Shown here: positions 23,796 to 50,080 of the stretch, piece after piece | Numbering within the stretch: the first letter of the stretch is position 1 | Layout of the letters: each line of letters starts with the position of its first letter | Assembly: GCA_017531305.1 (NCBI GenBank) | Contig: JAFXLG010000008.1 | Span: forward strand, 1 to 50,087 | From: Alistipes sp. | Lineage (GTDB): Bacteria; Bacteroidota; Bacteroidia; Bacteroidales; Rikenellaceae | Direction: 5' to 3' | DNA: 50,087 nucleotides | Position numbers and translations under genes: made by a program | Notes under the pieces: model-generated | What the model saw: only the letters and a program-made list of their open reading frames with translations | Databases searched by the model: none | What the model was told of the DNA's origin: nothing

Positions 23796-25031
23796 ATGAA
23801 AAACAATAAGCAAGACTCGACATTCGCTGTTTCACGATTTGGTCGCGACAAGCGTCAGCGTATCTCTTCGGCGGAGCAGGTCGAGCGTCGTCCCCGTCCT
23901 CAGCGTGATGCCGACAACGAGGGGCAAAGACCAGCGGGTCATCGTTCGGAGTTTGGTGCCAAGCGTGCATCGTACAATCCTAATTTCTCGGCAGACAATC
24001 GCCTTCGCGGTTCGGAGAGCCGTGGCACAAGAAAGCCTTATGAGCGTTCGGAGCGTGGTTTTGCAGCACGCAAGAACTACAACTCTGAGGAGCGTTCATT
24101 CTCAGGCGAGGAGTCTGGCTCAGAACAGCGCTTTTCGCCACGTTCGGAGTATGGACATCAGGATCGCCGTCAGGGAGGATATAAGCCTGCGTTCAAGTCT
24201 CAGAAGGGTGATTCGGCTCGTGGCGGTTATAAGTCAGGCAATGGTGGTGCGAAGCGTGCGTTCCGTCCCAAGGATGATGCGCAGCGTTCATACCCAAAAT
24301 ATGCAGCCAAGCAGACAGGTGAGATTCGCTTGAATAAGTTTTTGGCTCAGTCGGGACTCTGCTCACGCCGCGAGGCAGATAGCTTTATTCAGGCTGGTCT
24401 GGTGTCGGTAAATGGTGTTATCGTTACCGAGTTGGGTGTTAAGGTAAAGTCATCGGATGAGGTAAAGTTCAACGATTCGAAGGTACAGGGCGAGAAGAAG
24501 GTCTATTTGGTTTTGAACAAGCCAAAGGGATATGTAACCTCTTTGGAGGATCCTCATGCCGACAAGACCGTGATGGATCTTATCAAGGGCGCTTGCGCCG
24601 AGCGTGTCTATCCAGTAGGTCGTTTGGATAAGAATAGTTTGGGCTTGTTACTCTTTACAAACGATGGTGACATCACTCGTCAGCTCACACACCCATCACA
24701 CGAGAAGAAGAAGATCTATCAGGTATCACTCGATAAGCCTCTTACGCGTGCCGATATGGAGCTTATCACCGAGGGTATCACCTTGGAGGATGGCGAGATC
24801 TATGCCGATGAGGTAGCCTATGTGAGCGACTCTAAGACCGAGGTTGGTATCGAGATTCACTCAGGTCGTAACCGTATCGTGCGCCGTATTTTCGAGCATT
24901 TGGGTTACAATGTATTGAAGTTGGATCGAGTATATTATGCTGGTATTACCAAGAAGAATCTCAAGCGTGGTCAGTGGCGTTTCCTTACTCATGAGGAGGT
25001 CGATCGCCTGAAGAGTGGTCGATACGAATAG
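23796..25031 (+). CDS. RsuA/RluB/E/F-family pseudouridine synthase with long RG-rich N-terminal extension
   Basis: A 411-residue protein. The first ~170 residues are a basic, low-complexity, Arg/Gly/Ser/Tyr-rich tail with no fold signature. Then comes an S4 RNA-binding domain (about 176-235, IRLNKFLAQSGLCSRREAD) and a pseudouridine synthase domain with the catalytic Asp in VGRLDKNSLGLLLFTNDGD (about 277-295) and RQLTHPSHEKKKIYQV. It should make pseudouridine in 23S rRNA (RluB-like) in the cytoplasm. The disordered extension is common in Bacteroidota homologues and probably binds RNA. Single-gene unit with promoter and terminator. Confidence 0.92.
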   Translation: MKNNKQDSTFAVSRFGRDKRQRISSAEQVERRPRPQRDADNEGQRPAGHRSEFGAKRASYNPNFSADNRLRGSESRGTRKPYERSERGFAARKNYNSEERSFSGEESGSEQRFSPRSEYGHQDRRQGGYKPAFKSQKGDSARGGYKSGNGGAKRAFRPKDDAQRSYPKYAAKQTGEIRLNKFLAQSGLCSRREADSFIQAGLVSVNGVIVTELGVKVKSSDEVKFNDSKVQGEKKVYLVLNKPKGYVTSLEDPHADKTVMDLIKGACAERVYPVGRLDKNSLGLLLFTNDGDITRQLTHPSHEKKKIYQVSLDKPLTRADMELITEGITLEDGEIYADEVAYVSDSKTEVGIEIHSGRNRIVRRIFEHLGYNVLKLDRVYYAGITKKNLKRGQWRFLTHEEVDRLKSGRYE

Positions 25032-25045
25032 TCGATATGCTTAAC

Positions 25046-25073
25046 AAAAAGAGGCTTCGCGAAGCCTCTTTTT
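25046..25073. terminator. Bidirectional terminator, 28-bp perfect palindrome
   Basis: AAAAAGAGGCTTCG with its exact inverse CGAAGCCTCTTTTT. It lies between the convergent pseudouridine synthase (stop 25031) and C11 peptidase (stop 25079) genes and has a T-run on both strands. Confidence 0.92.
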
Positions 25074-25078
25074 GTTTG

Positions 25079-26308
25079 TTAATGTGTCGCCTTATACCAT
25101 GCCGTCTGTGGGTATGACTCTCTGCAAAGTTGAGATGGAGCAGAGGTTGTGAGTCCCGAAAATACCTCAGTGTTTACAGGGTAGAAGTTGGCATTAATGT
25201 ATGAAGACCAAAATTTATCGAGCGTAAACTTTGTTACAACAGTATTCCTTAGTTGCTGCTCAAACGCCTGCTTGTTTGTCTGATCCTTGCATGCCTGATT
25301 CACATAATCCCCAAGATCGAAGAATAGATGATTTGTTCCGCCATCATATGTCTGGAGTTTGTTCGGCTCTGCAAGATCTTCGACAGCCTGATTTACCTTA
25401 CGCATGGCATTTGCCAAAGCATCCAACTGAGAGCAATCCACGACAGCAATCGAACCTGTGTAAACTCCACCGCTTTGACTTACCTGCTCGTAATATTCAT
25501 AGAAACTCTTGGCAGCCTGAGTCAGATCATAGCTTTTGCCATTGTTCTGCAATAAATATGGGATCGTCTTTTCGTAGGGGAATCCCTTACCCATAATCTC
25601 GCACAGTGAGGCTACGATATATTTACTGCTGTTTCTAAGATCATACAAAGCCTCCACATTTGCCATGAAGCAGGCATCGAAGAGTATGTATTCGAACTTT
25701 TTGCCTGTTGCGCCTATTGCCTCCGCCAATGTGGGGATCTCGATGATGTTCGATGGGGTAGAGCTCTCTCCCAAGAATCGAGTTATAAACTCGCGAGGCA
25801 GCTCTATGTCGAGATGCTTCATCGCGCTCTTCTTCATGCCATTGTATTTGACCTGGCTCTCGAAGTCCGCAAAGGGAATCCAGCCCCAGCCATGTGAGCC
25901 TATGATAAGCCCATAGGAGGTGGCAGGTGCGCGGGATGTGATGTCGCTGAAGATATAACTGAGCGATGATTTGTCCATCTGGATAGGTAGATTGTATGAA
26001 GCAAACTCCTTCTCCTCTATCGTGCCATTCTTATACTCCAACTCAATAGCCTTTAGAGTCTTTTTGTCCGAGTGTCTAACGATTATTACGCGGCTCTGCC
26101 CTTTGATATCCTTGCTTAAGGCTTTTGCTATACCCTCTTCGTTGTAATCGTATGCCCAACTCAGGTCGGTTCCCACCATATATACAATCAGAGTCTGTGG
26201 TGTCGGCTCATCTTCTGGCGTGTGTATCTTCTCGCGGCAGGAGATGAGTGCAACCGATATGAAGCATAGCATCATTAGTCGGATGCTTTTATATGCAAAT
26301 CTCTCCAT
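25079..26308 (-). CDS. Clostripain-like C11 cysteine peptidase, lipoprotein
   Basis: A 409-residue exported protein with lipobox ALISC (Cys24). The clostripain fold follows: LIVYMVGTDLSW (40-51), catalytic His in IIGSHGWGW (H139) and catalytic Cys in LFDACFMANVEA (C213), with the usual FPYEKTIPYL region after it. Clostripains cleave after Arg or Lys and often self-process; gut Bacteroidales members act at the cell surface. Substrate unknown. It is the last gene of a minus-strand run and starts 3 bases after the DUF4919 stop, so the two are likely translationally coupled. Confidence 0.88.
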   Translation of the reverse strand: MERFAYKSIRLMMLCFISVALISCREKIHTPEDEPTPQTLIVYMVGTDLSWAYDYNEEGIAKALSKDIKGQSRVIIVRHSDKKTLKAIELEYKNGTIEEKEFASYNLPIQMDKSSLSYIFSDITSRAPATSYGLIIGSHGWGWIPFADFESQVKYNGMKKSAMKHLDIELPREFITRFLGESSTPSNIIEIPTLAEAIGATGKKFEYILFDACFMANVEALYDLRNSSKYIVASLCEIMGKGFPYEKTIPYLLQNNGKSYDLTQAAKSFYEYYEQVSQSGGVYTGSIAVVDCSQLDALANAMRKVNQAVEDLAEPNKLQTYDGGTNHLFFDLGDYVNQACKDQTNKQAFEQQLRNTVVTKFTLDKFWSSYINANFYPVNTEVFSGLTTSAPSQLCRESYPQTAWYKATH

Positions 26309-35966: not shown

Positions 35967-36845
35967 ATGGAAAAAGCATTAAAAATTGTTGTATTGGCTA
36001 AGCAAGTGCCCGATACCCGCAACGTGGGTAAGGATGCTATGACTCCAGAGGGTACGGTCAATCGAGCTGCATTGCCAGCTATTTTTAATCCTGAGGATTT
36101 GAATGCTCTTGAGTTGGCTCTTCGTCTTAAGGATCAGAGAGCTGGTTCTACGGTGCATATACTTACTATGGGACCGTTGCGCGCAGCGGATATTATTCGT
36201 GACGCAATGTTTAGAGGTGCAGATGGTGGTTATCTCTTGACCGACCGCAAGTTTGCAGGCTCTGATACCCTTGCTACCTCTTATGCTCTCTCGTGCGCTT
36301 TGCGCCAGATTGGAGCAGATGTAATCGTTGCTGGTCGTCAGGCTATTGATGGCGATACAGCTCAGGTAGGTCCTCAGGTGGCAGAGAAGTTGGGTCTGCC
36401 TCAGGTGACTTATGCCGAGCAGATTCTTCATGTCAAGGAGTCTTCGCTTGTTGTTCGCCGCCGTTTGGAGCGAGGCGTAGAGAGTGTTGAAACTCCTATC
36501 CCTGCCGTTATTACCGTTAATTCATCGGCTCCTGCGGTGCGTCCTCAGAATGCACGTTTGGTGATGAAGTATAAGCATGCGATGATCCCTACCGAGATCG
36601 CGGCAGATCCAGAGAGCCTTTCAGCTCAACTTTGCGCCAAGAAGGAGTATCTTCAGATCGTGGAGCTTACATCGGCTAATATCGAGTGCGATGAGCAGCA
36701 GTTAGGTCTTTTGGGATCGCCTACCAAGGTGAAGAAGATCGAGAACGTAGTTTTTCAAGCTAAGGAGGCAAAACGCCTTACAGCTTCGGATGAGGATATA
36801 AATAATTTGATGGTTGAACTTATAGCGAGCCATACGCTCGGCTAA
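35967..36845 (+). CDS. etfB: Electron transfer flavoprotein beta subunit
   Basis: A 292-residue nucleotide/flavin-binding protein. The N-terminus KIVVLAKQVPDT and the motif AGRQAIDGDTAQVGPQ (about 118-133) are those of EtfB/FixA. The GDTAQVGP form is the one found in many anaerobe Etf proteins, including electron-bifurcating ones, unlike the mitochondrial type. With EtfA it carries electrons from the acyl-CoA dehydrogenase encoded two genes on. First gene of a tight three-gene operon (16-base gap to etfA). Confidence 0.93.
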   Translation: MEKALKIVVLAKQVPDTRNVGKDAMTPEGTVNRAALPAIFNPEDLNALELALRLKDQRAGSTVHILTMGPLRAADIIRDAMFRGADGGYLLTDRKFAGSDTLATSYALSCALRQIGADVIVAGRQAIDGDTAQVGPQVAEKLGLPQVTYAEQILHVKESSLVVRRRLERGVESVETPIPAVITVNSSAPAVRPQNARLVMKYKHAMIPTEIAADPESLSAQLCAKKEYLQIVELTSANIECDEQQLGLLGSPTKVKKIENVVFQAKEAKRLTASDEDINNLMVELIASHTLG

Positions 36846-36861
36846 TCTAAAACAAGTTGAT

Positions 36862-37881
36862 ATGAATAATATATTTGTATATGTTGAGCTCGAGGAGGGT
36901 AAGATTGCCGATGTGAGTTTGGAACTCTTGACCAAAGGTCGTGAGCTCGCCGATAAGTTGGGCGTAAAGTTGGAGGCTGTGGCTATCGGAGCTTCGCTTC
37001 AGGGTGTTGAGAAGGAGTTGGCTCAGTATGGTGCCGACACGGTTTGGGTTGCCGATAATGAGATCTTTGCACCATTCCGCACTCTGCCTCATACCTCAGT
37101 TTTGTGTGGTTTGATCAAGGCGGAGCAGCCTCAGATCGTATTGTTTGGTGCTACTCCTGTGGGTCGTGATTTCGCACCACGCGTGTCATCGGCTTTGCAT
37201 AGTGGATTGACTGCCGATTGTACTCAGCTTGAGATTGGTCCTCATAAGGATGCTAAGTCGGGCAAGGAGTATGAGAATCTGTTGTATCAGATCCGTCCTG
37301 CATTTGGAGGTAATATCATCGCTACTATCGTTAACCCCGATTGCCGCCCTCAGATGGCTACCGTGCGCGAGGGTGTGATGCGTAAGGAGTTGGCTGCAAC
37401 GGCTGCCGCTGGCGAGGTGAAGCAGATCGCATGGCGCGACTATATCTCGGATAGCGATTTGGCGGTTAAAATTCTGGAGCGTGAGATCGAGGAGCGTAAG
37501 ATCAACATCAAGGGCGCGAGCGTAGTCGTAGCTGGTGGTTATGGTATGGGCTCTAAGGAGGGCTTCAAGCTCTGCTTCGATTTGGCTGAAGTGCTGGGTG
37601 CCGAGGTTGGTGCGAGCCGAGCTGCCGTAGATGCCGACTTCTGTGAGCATGAGCGTCAGATTGGTCAGACAGGTGTTACAGTTCGTCCTAAGCTCTATAT
37701 CGCTTGTGGTATTTCGGGTCAGATTCAGCATACGGCAGGTATGGATGAGTCATCTATGATTATCTCGATCAATACCGACCCTGATGCTCCTATCAATAAG
37801 ATCGCCGACTATGCTATCGTGGGCGATGTGGGAGAGGTTATCCCTAAGATGATTAAGTATTACAAACAAAACTCAAAGTAA
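36862..37881 (+). CDS. etfA: Electron transfer flavoprotein alpha subunit
   Basis: A 339-residue protein. The N-terminal half is the EtfA alpha/beta domain (IFVYVELEEGKIADVSLELL), and the C-terminal FAD domain has AGGYGMGSKEGF, VGASRAAVDADF, IGQTGVTVRPKLYIACGISG and QHTAGM (about 228-297), all typical FAD contacts. No extra ferredoxin domain. It ends 3 bases before the acyl-CoA dehydrogenase start, a sign of coupled translation and a shared complex. Confidence 0.95.
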   Translation: MNNIFVYVELEEGKIADVSLELLTKGRELADKLGVKLEAVAIGASLQGVEKELAQYGADTVWVADNEIFAPFRTLPHTSVLCGLIKAEQPQIVLFGATPVGRDFAPRVSSALHSGLTADCTQLEIGPHKDAKSGKEYENLLYQIRPAFGGNIIATIVNPDCRPQMATVREGVMRKELAATAAAGEVKQIAWRDYISDSDLAVKILEREIEERKINIKGASVVVAGGYGMGSKEGFKLCFDLAEVLGAEVGASRAAVDADFCEHERQIGQTGVTVRPKLYIACGISGQIQHTAGMDESSMIISINTDPDAPINKIADYAIVGDVGEVIPKMIKYYKQNSK

Positions 37882-37884
37882 GAG

Positions 37885-39609
37885 ATGGCTAATTTCTTTT
37901 TAGATAATAAAGATTTGCAGTACCACCTTGAGCATCCGTTGATGCGTAAGATTGTGGAGCTGAAGGAGAGAGGTTTCGCAGAGAAGGATCTCTATGATAC
38001 AGCACCTCACAACTTTGAGGATGCTATGGATTCATATCGCCGCGTGATGTCGATCACAGGCGAGGTGTGTGGCGATGTCATAGCTCCTAATGCCGAGGGT
38101 GTAGATCATGAAGGTCCACGAGTGGTGAATGATCGTGTGAAGTATGCTTCGGGTACGGTAGAGAATATGAATGCCGTAAATGCAGCAGGCCTTAGCGGTA
38201 TTACTTTGCCACGCCGTTTTGGTGGCTCTAATTTCCCGCTGATATGTTTTGTTATGGCAAACGAGATGGTAGCTCGTGCCGATGCCAGCTTCGAGAATAT
38301 CTGGGGCTTGCAGGATTGTGCTGAGACCTTGAATGAGTTTGCTTCGGAGGAGCAGAAACAGAAGTATCTAAGCTGGGTGTGTCAGGGTGCTACCTGCGCT
38401 ATGGATCTGACTGAGCCTGATGCAGGATCTGATTTGGGTGCTGTGATGTTGAAGGCTACATGGTCGGAGGAGCGTCAGACTTGGTTGCTGAATGGAGTGA
38501 AGCGTTTTATTACCAATGGTGATGGCGATGTGTCGCTTGTGTTGGCTCGTACCGAAGAGGGTACTACCGATGCGCGAGGCTTGTCGATGTTGGTATATGA
38601 TAAGCGTAACGGCGGTATGAAGGTGCGCCGTATCGAGAATAAGCTCGGTATCAAGGGCTCTCCAACTTGTGAGTTGGTATTTACCGATGCTCCAGCTGAG
38701 TTGGTGGGTAATCGCCGTATGGGACTTATCAAGTATGTGATGTCGTTGATGAATGCTGCACGTTTGGGTATCGGAGCGCAGTCGGTTGGTCTGTGTGAGG
38801 CAGCCTATCGTGAGGCTTTGAAGTATGCTCATGAGCGTCAGCAGTTTGGTAAGGATATCATCAAGTTCCCAGCTATTTCCGAGATGCTTACAACCATGCG
38901 CGCTAAGTTACATGGCGCCCGTGCTTTGTTGTACGAGACAAGCCGTTTTGTGGAGATCTATAAGCAATATACCCATATCTCTCACGAGCGTTCGTTGGAG
39001 TCAGAGGAGCGTCAGCAGATGAAGTATTACAACCGTTTGGCGGATGCATATACTCCACTAGTTAAGCTCTTCTCTTCGGAGTATGCCAATCAGTTGGCGT
39101 ATGATGCTATCCAGATTCATGGAGGATCGGGCTTTATGAAGGATTATCCATGTGAAAGATTGTATCGTGATGCTCGCATTATGAATATCTATGAGGGTAC
39201 ATCGCAGTTACAGGTTGTAGCGGCTATCAATGGCGTTACTAAGGGTACTTTCATGGAGAATATAGCTCGTTATGAGACTCAGGAGTATGCCGAGTCGATG
39301 CAGGATGTGAAGGCTAAGTTAATTGCTCTTAGAGAGCGTGTCGAGGCTATGGTTGCTCATGTGGAGAATGTAAGCAAGGAGTCGGCTCAGTTTAAGGATT
39401 TCCATGCACGCCGTTTGGTGGAGTCGGTAGGTCATATCATCATCACTCACCTCTTGGCACAGCAGGCTGCTGAGGTTGAGGCTTACGGCTCTGATGCAAA
39501 GGTATTCTTGAAGATGGCAGAGCAATATATCGCTGGTGCTGAGGCTGTGATTCTAAACTCTACGGCTGAGGATGTCGCTCTTTGGTCGGCAGTTCAGGAG
39601 GAGTTTTAG
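37885..39609 (+). CDS. Acyl-CoA dehydrogenase (long form)
   Basis: A 574-residue FAD enzyme that introduces a 2,3-double bond into an acyl-CoA, or reduces enoyl-CoA when run backwards with a bifurcating Etf. The core shows MDLTEPDAGSDLG (about 173-185), FGKDIIKFPAI (~321), QIHGGSGFMKDYPCERLYRDARI (~410-432) and the catalytic Glu in IYEGTSQLQ (E437). The C-terminal extension of ~120 residues past the core is normal for this long Bacteroidales form. Chain-length preference cannot be read by eye. Operon partner of etfBA; a terminator follows. Confidence 0.93.
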   Translation: MANFFLDNKDLQYHLEHPLMRKIVELKERGFAEKDLYDTAPHNFEDAMDSYRRVMSITGEVCGDVIAPNAEGVDHEGPRVVNDRVKYASGTVENMNAVNAAGLSGITLPRRFGGSNFPLICFVMANEMVARADASFENIWGLQDCAETLNEFASEEQKQKYLSWVCQGATCAMDLTEPDAGSDLGAVMLKATWSEERQTWLLNGVKRFITNGDGDVSLVLARTEEGTTDARGLSMLVYDKRNGGMKVRRIENKLGIKGSPTCELVFTDAPAELVGNRRMGLIKYVMSLMNAARLGIGAQSVGLCEAAYREALKYAHERQQFGKDIIKFPAISEMLTTMRAKLHGARALLYETSRFVEIYKQYTHISHERSLESEERQQMKYYNRLADAYTPLVKLFSSEYANQLAYDAIQIHGGSGFMKDYPCERLYRDARIMNIYEGTSQLQVVAAINGVTKGTFMENIARYETQEYAESMQDVKAKLIALRERVEAMVAHVENVSKESAQFKDFHARRLVESVGHIIITHLLAQQAAEVEAYGSDAKVFLKMAEQYIAGAEAVILNSTAEDVALWSAVQEEF

Positions 39610-43996: not shown

Positions 43997-44021
43997 TGTG
44001 GAACTTCAATTTTATGCATTT

Positions 44022-44879
44022 ATGAAACGTCTTTATCTAATTATTTTAGCGGCTATGTTGCTTATCTCGTGTGGCGGTGAAAAGCAGATCGGTATCCAGC
44101 TCTATTCGGTGCATCAGGACTTTGCTGATGTGGAGGCTATGCTTGAAAAAATTGCCGATGCAGGGTATAACACTATCGAGACTCTTTCGTGGCAGGGAGA
44201 TCCTTGTTTGGGACTATCGCCTGAAGATTATAAGTCGCTGTGCGATAGGCTTGGACTCTCAATCACTTCAACTCATACTTTAATTCCGATTCAAGCTGAT
44301 GATATGGAGTCTACAATGGCTGCATGGCGCAATCATTTCTCCATCATGCAACGTCTGGGTGCTAAATATAGCATAATCCCTGGGATGAATTTTGGCTCTA
44401 CGTTGGCAGAGGTGAAATCGACCTGCGACTACTGTATGAAGGTCGGTGAGTTGGCTCAGGAGTATGGTCTGAAGCTCGGCTATCACAACCATCAGGGTGA
44501 TTTTGTTAAGGTCGAAGGTGTGACCTTGTTGGACTATGTGATTCAGAATACCGATCCCGATAAGTTCTTCATCCAACTCGATGTGTGTCCGATGAATATG
44601 GGCGGAGCAGATCCTATGCACTATCTGAAGAGTTATCCAGACCATATCCGAGTTCTTCATCTGAAAGATGAGGGTGTTTTGGGCGAGAGTGGTAAAATTG
44701 ATATTGAGGCTATCTTTAAGCAGTTTTACTCGAATGGCTGGAGCGATTTTTATGCCGAGTATGAGCTTCCGTTCCGCATAGGTGATAATGAAACGGAGAA
44801 CAAGTCTAATCTAAATAAGATGTGGTCGGGCGTAAAGGCGTGTGCTGATTATCTGAAGGAGGCTAAGTTTGTAAAGTAG
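44022..44879 (+). CDS. Secreted sugar phosphate isomerase/epimerase-like lipoprotein (paralogue 1)
   Basis: A 285-residue lipoprotein (lipobox LLISC, Cys about residue 17) with the xylose-isomerase-like TIM barrel (PF01261 type). Likely metal ligands and catalytic residues lie in TIETLSW, LGYHNHQGD, FIQLDVCPMN, VLHLKDEG and YAEYEL. Intracellular relatives isomerise sugars, but exported members in Bacteroidota include enzymes that act on 3-keto-glycosides (1,2-lyases). Exactly as long as, and clearly homologous to, the gene at 46115. The ATG at 44022 is used because it gives the signal sequence and follows the promoter. Function by context: partner of the DUF1080 and Gfo/Idh/MocA proteins. Confidence 0.83.
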   Translation: MKRLYLIILAAMLLISCGGEKQIGIQLYSVHQDFADVEAMLEKIADAGYNTIETLSWQGDPCLGLSPEDYKSLCDRLGLSITSTHTLIPIQADDMESTMAAWRNHFSIMQRLGAKYSIIPGMNFGSTLAEVKSTCDYCMKVGELAQEYGLKLGYHNHQGDFVKVEGVTLLDYVIQNTDPDKFFIQLDVCPMNMGGADPMHYLKSYPDHIRVLHLKDEGVLGESGKIDIEAIFKQFYSNGWSDFYAEYELPFRIGDNETENKSNLNKMWSGVKACADYLKEAKFVK

Positions 44880-46114: not shown

Positions 46115-46972
46115 ATGAAGAAGATTTTTTCTATCGTAGCGGTTGCTTGTGCAACTGTATGTTTGTTCTCTTCTTGCTGTGGTGAGAAGAAGATCGGACT
46201 TCAGCTCTATTCTGTAAATCAGGATATGAAGAATGTTGAGGCATCTTTGCAGAAGGTTGCTGATGCTGGTTACAACGTAGTTGAGACTTTGGGTAGCCCT
46301 AATTGCTTTGGTTTGCCTGCTGCTGAGTTCAAGGCATTGTGTGACTCTAAGGGTTTGCAGATCATCTCTACTCACACTTCTATCGGTATGAATCCAGATG
46401 ATAAGGAGGGCGTGATGAATAAGTGGCGCGAGGTATTCGAGGGTCTTAAGACTATGGGTGCTAAGTATTGCGTTATCCCAGGTTTCAACTTGGGTAGCAA
46501 TCTTCAGGAGTTGAAGGCTGTTTGTGATTACTTCAACGAGGTAGGTAAGCTCGGTAAGGAGTATGGCATTAAGCTCGGTTATCACAACCACTCTCACGAG
46601 TACAACGTGATGGAGGGTAAAGTAATTTGGGAGTACATGATCGAGAACACAAATCCTGAGTATGTATTCTTCCAGATGGACGTATATTGGACAACTCGTG
46701 GCGGAAAGGATCCTGTTGCTTATTTGAAGCAGTATCCAGATCGTATCCAGATGCTCCACATCAAGGATGATATGGTTATCGGCGAGAGCGGCAAGATCGA
46801 CTTCGAGGCTATCTACAAGCAGTTCTATGCTAATGGCTGGAAGGATTTTGTAGTAGAGCAGGAGATGCCACGTGGTCCAGAGGGTGAGACTCGTGAGCAG
46901 CGTATGGCTCGTATGTGGGAGGGTGTTGCCAAGAGTGCAGCATACTTGCAGAATGCTAAGTTTGTGAAGTAG
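46115..46972 (+). CDS. Secreted sugar phosphate isomerase/epimerase-like lipoprotein (paralogue 2)
   Basis: A 285-residue lipoprotein (lipobox FSSC, Cys about 20) with the same TIM-barrel motifs as the gene at 44022: VVETLGS, LGYHNHSHE, FFQMDVYW, LHIKDD and VVEQEMPR. The two align from end to end by eye with the same length. Codons here are more uniform (GGT, CGT, AAG, CTG-poor), like purA and rubrerythrin, which suggests higher expression than paralogue 1. Acts at the envelope; a 3-keto-glycoside lyase or epimerase role is inferred from the family and from the DUF1080/Gfo genes in this window. Confidence 0.83.
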   Translation: MKKIFSIVAVACATVCLFSSCCGEKKIGLQLYSVNQDMKNVEASLQKVADAGYNVVETLGSPNCFGLPAAEFKALCDSKGLQIISTHTSIGMNPDDKEGVMNKWREVFEGLKTMGAKYCVIPGFNLGSNLQELKAVCDYFNEVGKLGKEYGIKLGYHNHSHEYNVMEGKVIWEYMIENTNPEYVFFQMDVYWTTRGGKDPVAYLKQYPDRIQMLHIKDDMVIGESGKIDFEAIYKQFYANGWKDFVVEQEMPRGPEGETREQRMARMWEGVAKSAAYLQNAKFVK

Positions 46973-47138: not shown

Positions 47139-47146
47139 TAATTTTG
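47139..47146 (+). promoter_or_regulatory. -7 box of the steroid-reductase-like operon
   Basis: TAATTTTG, exact TAnnTTTG, 44 bases before the first ATG (47190). There is no TTG at the usual -33 distance, so an activator may be needed. Confidence 0.5.
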
Positions 47147-47189: not shown

Positions 47190-47957
47190 ATGGAATTAAT
47201 CTCGACATATAATACCTTCTTGGTGGTGATGGCAGTCGCTGCGCTGTTTGTGTTCGTGGCTCTGCAATTTTTTGAGGCTGGCTATGGCTACCTCTTCGAT
47301 CGTAGATATGGACCTCCCGTGCCCAATAAGGTGGGGTGGGTGATGATGGAATCGCCCGTATTTATTGCGATGTGTGTGTTGTGGGCTATGTCGGACAGAC
47401 AATGGGATGTGGTGCCACTTGTGTTGTTTGCAATTTTTCAGTTGCACTATTTCCAACGCTCGTTTATCTTCCCGCTTATGATGCGAGGTAATTCGAAGAT
47501 GCCTCTCGGAATAGTGGCTATGGGTATGCTTTTCAATACGCTCAATGCCTTGATGCAGGGCGGTTGGATCTTTTATGTGGCACCCGAAGGGTATTATGCC
47601 GAATGGTTTGCAAAGCCTTACATCTATATCGGTGTGGCGATATTCTTTGCGGGAATGTTCATCAATCTGCAATCGGATTATATTATACGTCACCTGCGCA
47701 AGGAGGGCGATACGCGACATTATATCCCTCGCGGTGGAATGTTTCGATATGTCTCATCGGCAAATTATTTCGGTGAGTTGTTGGAATGGACAGGATTTGC
47801 CATTGCCTCATGGTCGTGGGCAGGTGTGATTTTCGTGTGGTGGACCTTTGCTAATTTAGCACCGCGCTCAGCTTCGCTCTATAAGCGTTATGAGAAGGAG
47901 TTTGGCGATGAGTTTATCCGCTTGGGAAGAAAGCGTATAATCCCATTTATCTATTAA
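47190..47957 (+). CDS. Steroid 5-alpha-reductase-like membrane protein (DUF1295/SRD5A family)
   Basis: A 255-residue protein with six to seven membrane segments. The C-terminal half carries the 3-oxo-5-alpha-steroid 4-dehydrogenase signature: YIPRGGMFRYVSSANYFGELLEWTGFA (about 177-203, quoted in part) with the conserved N-Y-x-G-E and a final YKRYEKEFGDEF motif that binds NADPH. The EAGYGYLFDRRYGPPVPN stretch after the first helix is also typical of SRD5A1-like proteins. The family reduces the delta-4 bond of 3-oxo-steroids to 5-alpha products. It is followed by OYE-like and SDR genes, matching the gut bile-acid set, so 5-alpha reduction of bile acids or hormones is likely. A role in another lipid cannot be ruled out. 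Confidence 0.85.
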   Translation: MELISTYNTFLVVMAVAALFVFVALQFFEAGYGYLFDRRYGPPVPNKVGWVMMESPVFIAMCVLWAMSDRQWDVVPLVLFAIFQLHYFQRSFIFPLMMRGNSKMPLGIVAMGMLFNTLNALMQGGWIFYVAPEGYYAEWFAKPYIYIGVAIFFAGMFINLQSDYIIRHLRKEGDTRHYIPRGGMFRYVSSANYFGELLEWTGFAIASWSWAGVIFVWWTFANLAPRSASLYKRYEKEFGDEFIRLGRKRIIPFIY

Positions 47958-47977
47958 AACGCAAAACTTTATATACA

Positions 47978-49207
47978 ATGAAGGATCTCAAGGATTCAAA
48001 ACTCTTTACTCCCTATCAGATGGGACCTGTGACTCTGCGTAACCGTACGATTCGTTCTGCGGCGTTTGAGTCTATGGGTAAGGATTTCGGACCGACTCAG
48101 GCTCTGAAGGATTACCATGTGAGTGTGGCACGAGGAGGAGTGGGTATGACCACTTTGGCGTATGCTTCGGTAAATCGTAGCGGAGTCTCGTTTAATAGTC
48201 AGCTTTGGCTTCGTGATGAGATTATACCTCAGCTTCGCGATATTACCGATGCGGTGCATAAAGAAGGTGCTGCGGTGGGTATTCAGATTGGTCATTGCGG
48301 AAATATGACCCATTGGTCAACTGCGGGTTGTTTCCCTGTTTCGGCTTCGAATGGATTTAACCTCTATTCTCCTACCTTCCATCGCCGTTTACGCCGTTCG
48401 GAATTGACGGAGATGGCTAAGGACTTCGGTCAAGCGGTAAAAGTTGCTCACGATGCAGGATTTGATAGCGTGGAGGTGCATGCAGGTCATGGATATTTGA
48501 TTTCGCAATTCCTTTCGCCTTGGACAAATCGCCGCCGAGATGAGTTTGGTGGCTCGCTCCAGAATCGTATGCGTTTTATGAATATGTGTCTGGAGGAGGT
48601 GATGGAGCAGGCTGCGCGATACAAAATGGCGGTGCTTGTGAAACACAATATGGAGGATGGTTTTCGTAGCGGTATTCAGATTCCAGAATCTATCGAAATT
48701 GCCAAGCAGATCGAGAGCTTTGGCGTGAATGGTATAGTCCTCTCTTCAGGTTTTGTGTCGCGTGCGCCGATGGCTGTGATGCGAGGCAGAATCCCAACCA
48801 AGAGTATGGGATATTATATGCCGTGGAGTCAATGGCCTCAGAAAATTGTAGTCTCGTTGTTTGGTCAGTGGATGATCAAGCAATATGACTTTGAGGAGTG
48901 CTTCTTCTTGGAGAATGCCAAAAAGTTCAGAGCAGCTCTGAAGGGTCCGCTTGTTTATGTGGGCGGTATCGTTTCGCGTGAGGGCATTGAGCGAGTTTTG
49001 GATGAGGGCTTCGAGATGGTGCAGATTGCGCGTGCGTTGATTAACGATCCTGCGTTTGTAAACCATATGAAGGAGGCTGATATTACCTATCGCTCGGGTT
49101 GTGACAATAAGGATTATTGTATTGCTCGTATGTATTCTGTCGATATGAAGTGTTGTCACCATTGCCAGAATCTGCCCGAGGTGGTGCGCAAGGAGCTTAA
49201 ATTATAG
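47978..49207 (+). CDS. Old Yellow Enzyme-like NADH:flavin oxidoreductase (candidate 5-beta-reductase)
   Basis: A 409-residue flavoenzyme: an FMN TIM barrel with LFTPYQMGPVTLRNR at the N-terminus, IQIGHCG (~99-105), the catalytic region VEVHAGHGYLISQFLSPWTNRR (~169-190, quoted in part) and GGSLQNRMRF. It ends near residue 409 with a Cys cluster (C-x5-C, then CC-x2-C in the last 40 residues), as if for an Fe-S centre, but lacks the C-terminal FAD/NAD Rossmann domains of 2,4-dienoyl-CoA reductase or BaiCD. Between a 5-alpha-reductase and an SDR, reduction of the delta-4 bond to the 5-beta product is the best guess. Twenty bases after the first gene, 5 bases before the third. Confidence 0.82.
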   Translation: MKDLKDSKLFTPYQMGPVTLRNRTIRSAAFESMGKDFGPTQALKDYHVSVARGGVGMTTLAYASVNRSGVSFNSQLWLRDEIIPQLRDITDAVHKEGAAVGIQIGHCGNMTHWSTAGCFPVSASNGFNLYSPTFHRRLRRSELTEMAKDFGQAVKVAHDAGFDSVEVHAGHGYLISQFLSPWTNRRRDEFGGSLQNRMRFMNMCLEEVMEQAARYKMAVLVKHNMEDGFRSGIQIPESIEIAKQIESFGVNGIVLSSGFVSRAPMAVMRGRIPTKSMGYYMPWSQWPQKIVVSLFGQWMIKQYDFEECFFLENAKKFRAALKGPLVYVGGIVSREGIERVLDEGFEMVQIARALINDPAFVNHMKEADITYRSGCDNKDYCIARMYSVDMKCCHHCQNLPEVVRKELKL

Positions 49208-49212
49208 TTGCG

Positions 49213-50022
49213 ATGCGTAGGGGCGAAGTGTTGGCAGGTAGTAAGACCGCATTGGTTACGGGCGCAAGCAAGGGTATAGGCAGATGCTATGCTTTGCAAC
49301 TTGCTTCGTTGGGTTATAATGTCTTGATGGTGGCTTCGGGCGAGGAGGAGCTGGCGCGCACTTTTCAGGAGGTCAAGAGTGTGAACGGTGGCGTGTGGGT
49401 GCGATATTATACCAAAGATATGGCAACGCCAAGTGCTGCTGAAGAACTGTTTGCATGGACCGAGGCTGAGCAGATCAAGGTGGATGTGCTGGTGAATAAT
49501 GCTGGTATTTTCTCTTTCTGCGATATCTTAGCAACTCCAATCGAGCGTATCCAACGAATTATATATCTGCATGACATTACGGCAACTATCATGTGCCGAC
49601 TCTATGCTGCCGATATGATTGAGCGTGGGGGCGGTTATATCCTCAATATGTCGTCATACTCCATCTGGATGCCTTACCCTGGGCTCTCGCTGTATAGTGC
49701 CAGCAAGGCGTATTTGAAGAGTTTCTCGGTTGCTTTCGCTAAGGAGGTGCGCGATAAAGGTGTTGTGGTGACTGCGATCTGCCCAGCAGGCATCGCTACC
49801 GATCTTTATGGACTCTCGAAGGGTTTGCAACGATTTGGAGTCAAGACGGGTATCTTGATGACGCCCGAAAGTTGCGCTCGCCGAGGATTGAATGGATTAT
49901 TTCGTGGTCAGCGTTGCAAGGTCCCCGATTGGTGGTTTAGGCTCTTTATCCCTATCTGTCAATTGGTACGCGGACCTGTGATGCGTTGGCTGAGGGACTA
50001 TACGATGAAGTTTCAGAAGTAG
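49213..50022 (+). CDS. Short-chain dehydrogenase (candidate 3-beta-hydroxysteroid dehydrogenase)
   Basis: A 269-residue classical SDR: TGASKGIG cofactor motif (about 17-24), VNNAG (~95-99), Ser in NMSSYS (~146-151) and YSASKAYLK with catalytic Tyr/Lys (about 160-168), then ICPAGIATDLYG. The C-terminal ~45 residues are longer and aromatic/basic (WWFRLFIPICQLVRGP), as in membrane-associated 17-beta or 3-beta-HSD-like enzymes. As last gene of the operon it most likely interconverts the 3-hydroxyl and 3-oxo groups of the reduced steroid. Position specificity (3-alpha, 3-beta, 17-beta) cannot be decided by eye. The start at 49213 is 5 bases after the previous stop. Confidence 0.83.
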   Translation: MRRGEVLAGSKTALVTGASKGIGRCYALQLASLGYNVLMVASGEEELARTFQEVKSVNGGVWVRYYTKDMATPSAAEELFAWTEAEQIKVDVLVNNAGIFSFCDILATPIERIQRIIYLHDITATIMCRLYAADMIERGGGYILNMSSYSIWMPYPGLSLYSASKAYLKSFSVAFAKEVRDKGVVVTAICPAGIATDLYGLSKGLQRFGVKTGILMTPESCARRGLNGLFRGQRCKVPDWWFRLFIPICQLVRGPVMRWLRDYTMKFQK

Positions 50023-50034
50023 ATCTATAAAATG

Positions 50035-50080
50035 AAAAAGAGTGTCAGGCGAATGGTTTGCTTGGACACTCTTTTTTTTC
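50035..50080 (+). terminator. Intrinsic terminator of the steroid-reductase-like operon
   Basis: 12-bp stem AAAAAGAGTGTC / GACACTCTTTTT with an 18-nt loop and a T-run, ending the three-gene operon. Confidence 0.88.

Follow-up and report, generated by a model that had tools for sequence, protein, structure and literature searches.

Three genes on the + strand between positions 47190 and 50022 of contig JAFXLG010000008.1 of Alistipes sp. (assembly GCA_017531305.1) probably make up a module for remodelling the steroid A ring, with bile acids as its most likely substrates. The entire contig, 50,087 nucleotides long and hereafter called the window, belongs to a genome of 2.05 Mb in 72 contigs that is 87% complete. 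The first gene encodes an SRD5A-type membrane steroid 5α-reductase homologue (5AR; 255 residues, 47190..47957), the second a one-domain Old Yellow Enzyme (OYE; 409 residues, 47978..49207) that is a candidate 5β-reductase (5BR) or 5β-Δ4 dehydrogenase, and the third a classical short-chain dehydrogenase/reductase (SDR; 269 residues, 49213..50022) that is a candidate 3β-hydroxysteroid dehydrogenase (3β-HSDH). With gaps of only 20 and 5 bases between them, the three open reading frames form one tight operon, as a first-pass annotation of this DNA had described it. The families which that annotation assigned were also borne out by Pfam matches far above cut-off, namely PF02544 (Steroid_dh, E 1.5e-42, 145.6 bits against a cut-off of 22.6) for the 5AR, PF00724 (Oxidored_FMN, E 2.8e-54) for the OYE, whose other Pfam match, to a TIM-barrel family, lies below cut-off, and PF00106 (adh_short, E 2.7e-41) for the SDR. 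By analogy with published clusters of Bacteroidota, from which both the reactions and their direction are borrowed, the OYE would interconvert 3-oxo-5β and 3-oxo-Δ4 steroids, the 5AR would reduce the Δ4 bond irreversibly and with NADPH to the flat 3-oxo-5α form, and the SDR would reduce the 3-oxo group, probably to a 3β-hydroxyl. The net outcome would be the conversion of bent 5β bile acids, such as 3-oxolithocholic acid (3-oxoLCA), into flat 3β,5α forms such as isoallolithocholic acid (isoalloLCA). The OYE may accordingly be pictured running as a 5β-to-Δ4 dehydrogenase that feeds the 5AR, in the manner drawn in PMC9645264.

The published clusters offer a close parallel. As described in PMC10382948, the 5AR of Parabacteroides merdae is clustered with a predicted 3β-HSDH and with an NADH:flavin oxidoreductase hypothesised to be a 5β-reductase, and disruption of this 5AR blocked the formation of allolithocholic acid (alloLCA) derivatives. 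Three-enzyme clusters turning 3-oxoLCA into isoalloLCA are cited for Bacteroidetes in PMC12697870, and the scheme of PMC9645264 has a 3α-HSDH and a 5BR turn deoxycholic acid into the 3-oxo-Δ4 acid, which is then handled by a 5AR and a 3β-HSDH. The window holds genes of the 5AR, NADH:flavin oxidoreductase and SDR types together, and the likeness to gut 5AR/5BR/3β-HSDH clusters suggested in the first-pass annotation agrees with what the first two of these sources describe. Because the steroid or bile-acid reading fits these clusters, the gene set is of an already known Bacteroidota kind, here in a ruminant-type Alistipes. No paper describing the operon in Alistipes was found among the matches listed in the open-licence literature. 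The primary studies of the Bacteroidota clusters are reportedly Sato 2021 and Li 2021.

The active sites of the three proteins are well preserved. The nearest solved structure to the 5AR is that of a bacterial SRD5A (PbSRD5A, 7c83), which it matches over residues 7-254 with an E value of 7e-53, and human SRD5A2 (7bw1) is matched at E 2e-38. For SRD5A2, Han et al. (PMC7815742) described a Q-E-Y motif (Q56, E57 and Y91) together with eight residues that contact NADPH. Alignment to the SRD5A structures places M53, E54 and Y87 of the window protein at the positions of this motif; the catalytic Glu (E54) and Tyr (Y87) are kept in all 121 Bacteroidales sequences aligned, and seven of the eight NADPH residues are present in the window 5AR. 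In the OYE, H168, H171 and Y173, which align with YqjM residues that we take to be catalytic, are kept throughout a set of 107 sequences that share 50% identity or more. Classical SDRs carry the signature TGxxxGxG, a Ser and YxxxK, and the third protein shows TGASKGIG, NNAG, S148 and Y161-x3-K165, with T16, G17, G21, G23, S148, Y161 and K165 each found in 100 of 100 aligned sequences. Residue 120 of the SDR (window 49570-49572), presumably the place of the catalytic Asn of classical SDRs, is His in 98 of the same 100 sequences. No NCBIfam model reaches its cut-off for this protein among the best 25 of 213 matched, and no molecule named 3β-HSDH appears among the best 60 of 578 PDB sequences that match it. 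The SDRs of the operon make up one clade in the tree (support 100/99), which includes one unlinked paralogue of the same genome. This paralogue, 39% identical, lies on contig C19 at 24628-25347 (L153; L159, 6626-7414), and its neighbours do not have a steroid look, so that it does not mark a second steroid locus.

The first-pass annotation had also proposed looking for the same gene order in neighbours, and this order turned out to be widespread. Among Alistipes and Rikenellaceae loci (the best 80 of 206 by OYE similarity), the 5AR-OYE-SDR order and strand are kept in 80 of 80, the departures being an SDR that runs off the contig in L016 and L037, a truncated 5AR in L031 and an SDR about 2.3 kb away in L076. 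Sampling of 101 genomes of the genus gave the 5AR, at 67% identity or more, in 91, with weak matches only in 2 more, and the OYE in 92, part of them as contig-end fragments; both occur together in 91 of the 101. At the level of the order, 295 Bacteroidales genomes (own genome included; matches counted from 49% identity) yielded the 5AR in 35, the OYE in 39 and both in 33, and in 30 of these 33 the two genes share contig and strand with the 5AR first, the remaining 3 having them on other contigs. The spacing between the two matches is 6-107 bases in 26 of those 30 genomes. Moreover, when 33 of the 37 Bacteroidales places with a 5AR of at least 49% identity were examined (L112-L144), an OYE was present in 26 neighbourhoods. 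In 18 of them it is followed within 1.8 kb by an SDR belonging to the operon clade, and in 2 by an SDR of a different type instead. One more distant relative of the OYE, in Sphingobium TomTYG65, has an annotated 3-beta hydroxysteroid dehydrogenase as its neighbour, which favours a steroid role. Comparison of six locus pairs for the three genes gave ratios of nonsynonymous to synonymous substitution (dN/dS) of 0.02-0.06 in 12 of 18 cases, the other 6 being saturated; dS was 0.7-1.0 against the closest locus and 1.6-3.1 against the others, for which dN/dS is therefore rough. Where dS can be estimated, in these 12 comparisons, the genes of the operon are under purifying selection, and conservation of the operon is well above chance expectation. 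Families, operon structure, conserved order, constraint and active-site residues are all established for this gene set.

The second SDR type encountered in this survey follows the usual SDR in 4 of the 18 loci (L124, 8498-9337; L120; L127; L128) and stands in its place in L122 and L140. Its nearest NCBIfam models, in the two sequences checked, are PRK06197/PRK05854, and it could represent an HSDH with a different stereospecificity.

Several findings weigh against a steroid module directed at bile acids. Among solved structures, steroid enzymes are nearest to the 5AR only: the OYE comes closest to YqjM-type Old Yellow Enzymes, a group of general ene-reductases, and the SDR to FabG-like and assorted SDRs. 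At E 0.001 no NCBIfam model matches the 5AR, and with the BaiCD model NF041087 the OYE reaches 175 bits against a cut-off of 825. The Gln of the Q-E-Y motif is replaced by Met in 121 of 121 aligned sequences, including 7 distant ones from outside the operon, and in human SRD5A2 the changes Q56A/L abolished activity (PMC7815742); a further departure is Leu230 at the place of H231 of SRD5A2. A likeness to steroid-active OYEs gives no guarantee of activity either, since PMC8044976, testing homologues of the Sphingobium 5β-Δ4-KSTD1, saw activity with CasH but none with Nov2c085, Nov2c314 or C211_11427. At the level of gene content, 6 of the 26 order-level loci have neither the operon-type nor the second-type SDR beside the OYE, and some genomes or loci hold a 5AR without an OYE nearby, or an OYE-SDR pair without a 5AR. 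Finally, the genome itself, at 87% completeness, has no match to the bile salt hydrolase (BSH) family, and BSH occurs in 54 of the 101 genus genomes.

The occurrence of Met in the 7 distant sequences means that the change from Gln is not confined to the operon, and because M53 is found in all 121 sequences we class the window 5AR among SRD5A-family homologues of variant signature rather than with the canonical Q-E-Y enzymes. The M-E-Y variant would be compatible with activity if the P. merdae 5AR shares the Met. At the H231 position, all 114 operon-clade sequences have an aliphatic residue and 6 of the 7 distant ones have His; in human SRD5A2, H231A kept activity (PMC7815742). The distribution of BSH, absent from this genome and found in about half of the genus sample, speaks against a close dependence on bile acids and means that operon and deconjugation need not go together; a link between the two was rejected for this genome in its 87%-complete form.

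The direction in which the OYE works separates the relay outlined above from its strongest rival. It is possible, as inferred in the first-pass annotation, whose interpretation is only partly supported, that the operon is a branch point, at which 5AR and 5BR both reduce the same Δ4 substrate and the cell chooses between 5α and 5β products, and the Old Yellow Enzymes BaiCD and ci2350 do reduce Δ4 in the 5β sense (PMC12238238, PMC11574389). However, the window OYE does not have the FAD/NAD(P) domain found in both of these enzymes, and competing reductases within one operon would be less sensible than a relay of oxidation and reduction. Assignment of the OYE to the BaiCD type was rejected on account of this missing C-terminal domain and of its cysteines: the cluster motif given for iron-sulphur (Fe-S) flavoenzyme 5β-reductases in PMC11574389 is CX2CX3CX11-13C, whereas the window protein has C375-x5-C381-x10-C392, with Cys378 missing in 107 of 107 sequences.

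These cysteines nevertheless form a pattern of their own. C107, C375, C381 and C392 are invariant in the 107 OYE sequences, and the last three are among the 26 invariant columns of a 27-sequence set that reaches down to 24% identity. In an alignment of the tail, all 16 relatives from outside the operon clade have C-x2-C-x2-C, with Cys378, and all 11 members of the clade lack Cys378. Two near relatives (L178, L179) have a Cys at 377. All 13 sequences with 49% identity or more have C107, although 5 of these come from genomes where no 5AR reaches that cut-off; it also occurs in 11 of 15 outgroups (L162-L172), the remaining four having Thr; two sphingomonad OYE relatives have Ala at this position. 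When the tail was searched as a profile, histamine dehydrogenase (E 1.8e-7), 2,4-dienoyl-CoA reductase (3e-6) and trimethylamine dehydrogenase (5e-6) were matched across the cysteine region, with the tail cysteines falling on the C-x2-C-x2-C...C of histamine dehydrogenase in the profile alignment; four HisF-like barrels outrank the Fe-S flavoenzymes in this search, matching the barrel part only. An AlphaFold2 model, aimed at whether the four cysteines come together in space and built from a shallow alignment of the window and related loci (54 rows chosen from 81, the others being 80-97% identical to the first), shows a barrel with a mean predicted local distance difference test (pLDDT) score of 59.1 and a predicted template modelling score of 0.70, residues 107-135 and 351-409 having a pLDDT below 50.

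From this pattern we infer that the OYE could bind an Fe-S cluster with C107 as the fourth ligand. A fuller proposal, which we regard as tentative, is that the Bacteroidota 5BR represents a distinct type of one-domain Fe-S OYE, holding a 4Fe-4S cluster through the three tail cysteines and Cys107, exchanging electrons with an external carrier (electron-transfer flavoprotein (ETF), ferredoxin or quinone) instead of NAD(P)H, and acting mainly as a 5β-to-Δ4 dehydrogenase; an oxidative direction for such an enzyme is plausible by analogy with the Sphingobium 5β-Δ4-KSTD1 (PMC8044976). If it were true, Cys107 would have replaced the lost fourth tail cysteine, and the operon would act as an A/B-ring isomerase, its 5BR oxidising the steroid that the M-E-Y 5AR then reduces irreversibly. 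With Fe-S-like cysteines conserved in a one-domain OYE, direct tests could address where the 5BR step gets its electrons and which way it runs. The candidates for surprise in this operon are this cysteine pattern and the M-E-Y variant of the 5AR, and the 5BR, the least studied of the three enzymes, may have an unusual mechanism. The window contains two ETF genes (35967-37881) followed by an acyl-CoA dehydrogenase, a set that ends at 39609. They were considered as the electron partner of the OYE, for which no evidence was found, the set being unlinked and ending 7.6 kb upstream of the operon.

A second alternative concerns the substrates: the true ones might be steroid hormones or sterols from diet or plants, with turnover of bile acids a side activity. 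In this regard, SRD5A enzymes accept several 3-oxo-Δ4 steroids, both reductases are found in 91 of the genus genomes against 54 for BSH, and the distant OYE relative of Sphingobium TomTYG65, a strain reportedly able to degrade tomato saponins, is encoded on a plasmid. In the gut, however, bile acids greatly exceed hormones in abundance. It was also alloLCA derivatives that were lost when the P. merdae 5AR was disrupted (PMC10382948), and hormones or sterols as the main substrates seem unlikely. Weakest of all, and very improbable, is a non-steroid operon for enone detoxification or membrane lipids that just resembles steroid enzymes, which would suit the breadth of the OYE and SDR families, the absence of steroid enzymes among their nearest solved relatives and the departure of M-E-Y from Q-E-Y, but not an SRD5A homologue with conserved Glu, Tyr and NADPH residues standing beside an OYE and an SDR as in the published bile-acid clusters. 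A steroid A-ring module acting on bile acids is therefore the reading retained here.

The operon appears to have its own expression signals, in keeping with the promoter box and terminator that had been noticed at the outset. A TAnnTTTG box (TAATTTTG, 47139..47146, + strand), which we take to be the Bacteroidetes promoter −7 motif, is likely the −7 element of the operon promoter; it is the sole conserved block in an alignment of 25 upstream regions (24 loci plus the window), 24 of which have it exactly, L012 showing a one-base mismatch. No convincing −33 element was found in the upstream region of the operon. Matches to sigma-70 promoters were disregarded, this being a Bacteroidales genome and the sigma-70 scan not covering promoters of the TAnnTTTG type. 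Downstream, an inverted repeat read by eye, AAAAAGAGTGTC / GACACTCTTTTT, followed by T8 (50035..50079, + strand) is likely an intrinsic terminator, and a scan also predicted a terminator-like site here, formed by a different stem (50045-50065). Since the contig stops at 50087, the sequence 3′ of this terminator is not visible in the genome. Upstream of the operon, two PF01261 xylose-isomerase-like TIM-barrel proteins (43998-44879 and 46115-46972) flank an alpha/beta hydrolase. The second of them lies directly upstream of the operon and is matched in 14 of the 80 loci, not always adjacent to it.

The hosts of the relatives point to ruminants. The nearest named relatives by OYE, again within the best 80 of 206, are metagenome-assembled genomes (MAGs) of Alistipes and Rikenellaceae, the best being 97% identical and from dairy cattle rectum; a ruminant host (cattle, goat, buffalo, deer, sheep or yak) is recorded for 60 of the 80, and no host is given for the other 20. 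According to PMC9750977, isoalloLCA is among the secondary bile acids that are higher in the large intestine of dairy cows, where Alistipes accounts for 8.7% of MAGs; the term '5AR' does not occur in the main text of that paper, and the gene list given there omits it. With both reductases in 91 of 101 genus genomes and 8.7% of MAGs where isoalloLCA is higher, ruminant Alistipes represents a concrete and testable source of this bile acid. IsoalloLCA inhibits Gram-positive bacteria such as Clostridioides difficile (PMC10382948) and, according to PMC12697870, favours regulatory T cells.

With PbSRD5A (7c83), the window 5AR shares near full-length homology, the catalytic Glu and Tyr and seven of the eight named NADPH residues, but it has Met for the motif Gln and Leu for the His of the NADPH site. 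The OYE shares its barrel with BaiCD, ci2350, 2,4-dienoyl-CoA reductase and the histamine and trimethylamine dehydrogenases, and the cysteine region of histamine dehydrogenase aligns with its tail cysteines; unlike these Fe-S flavoenzymes, the operon OYE has no C-terminal FAD/NAD(P) domain, has lost Cys378 and has an invariant Cys107 instead. A search of a plasmid collection named two Bacteroidales relatives outside Alistipes, Parabacteroides distasonis and Phocaeicola massiliensis. The record NZ_OY725754.1 of P. distasonis carries an OYE-SDR pair (WP_005861966.1, WP_009276610.1) whose OYE is 58% and whose SDR is 43% identical to those of the window; neither the 17 kb examined there nor the record as a whole gave a match to the 5AR. 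In this record (L183, 1268-10018) the pair follows a TetR regulator and a TolC-adaptor-RND efflux gene set, with a small PG0541-family gene in between, and may be tied to export of its substrate or product. In Phocaeicola massiliensis OY726067.1, the 5AR is 53% and the OYE 61% identical to the window proteins, and the SDR is of a different type (25%). The closest overall likeness is that to the 5AR/5BR/3β-HSDH clusters of P. merdae and other Bacteroidota, with which the operon shares the clustering of three enzyme types, compared through published description and not sequence, and from which it differs in belonging to a ruminant-type Alistipes.

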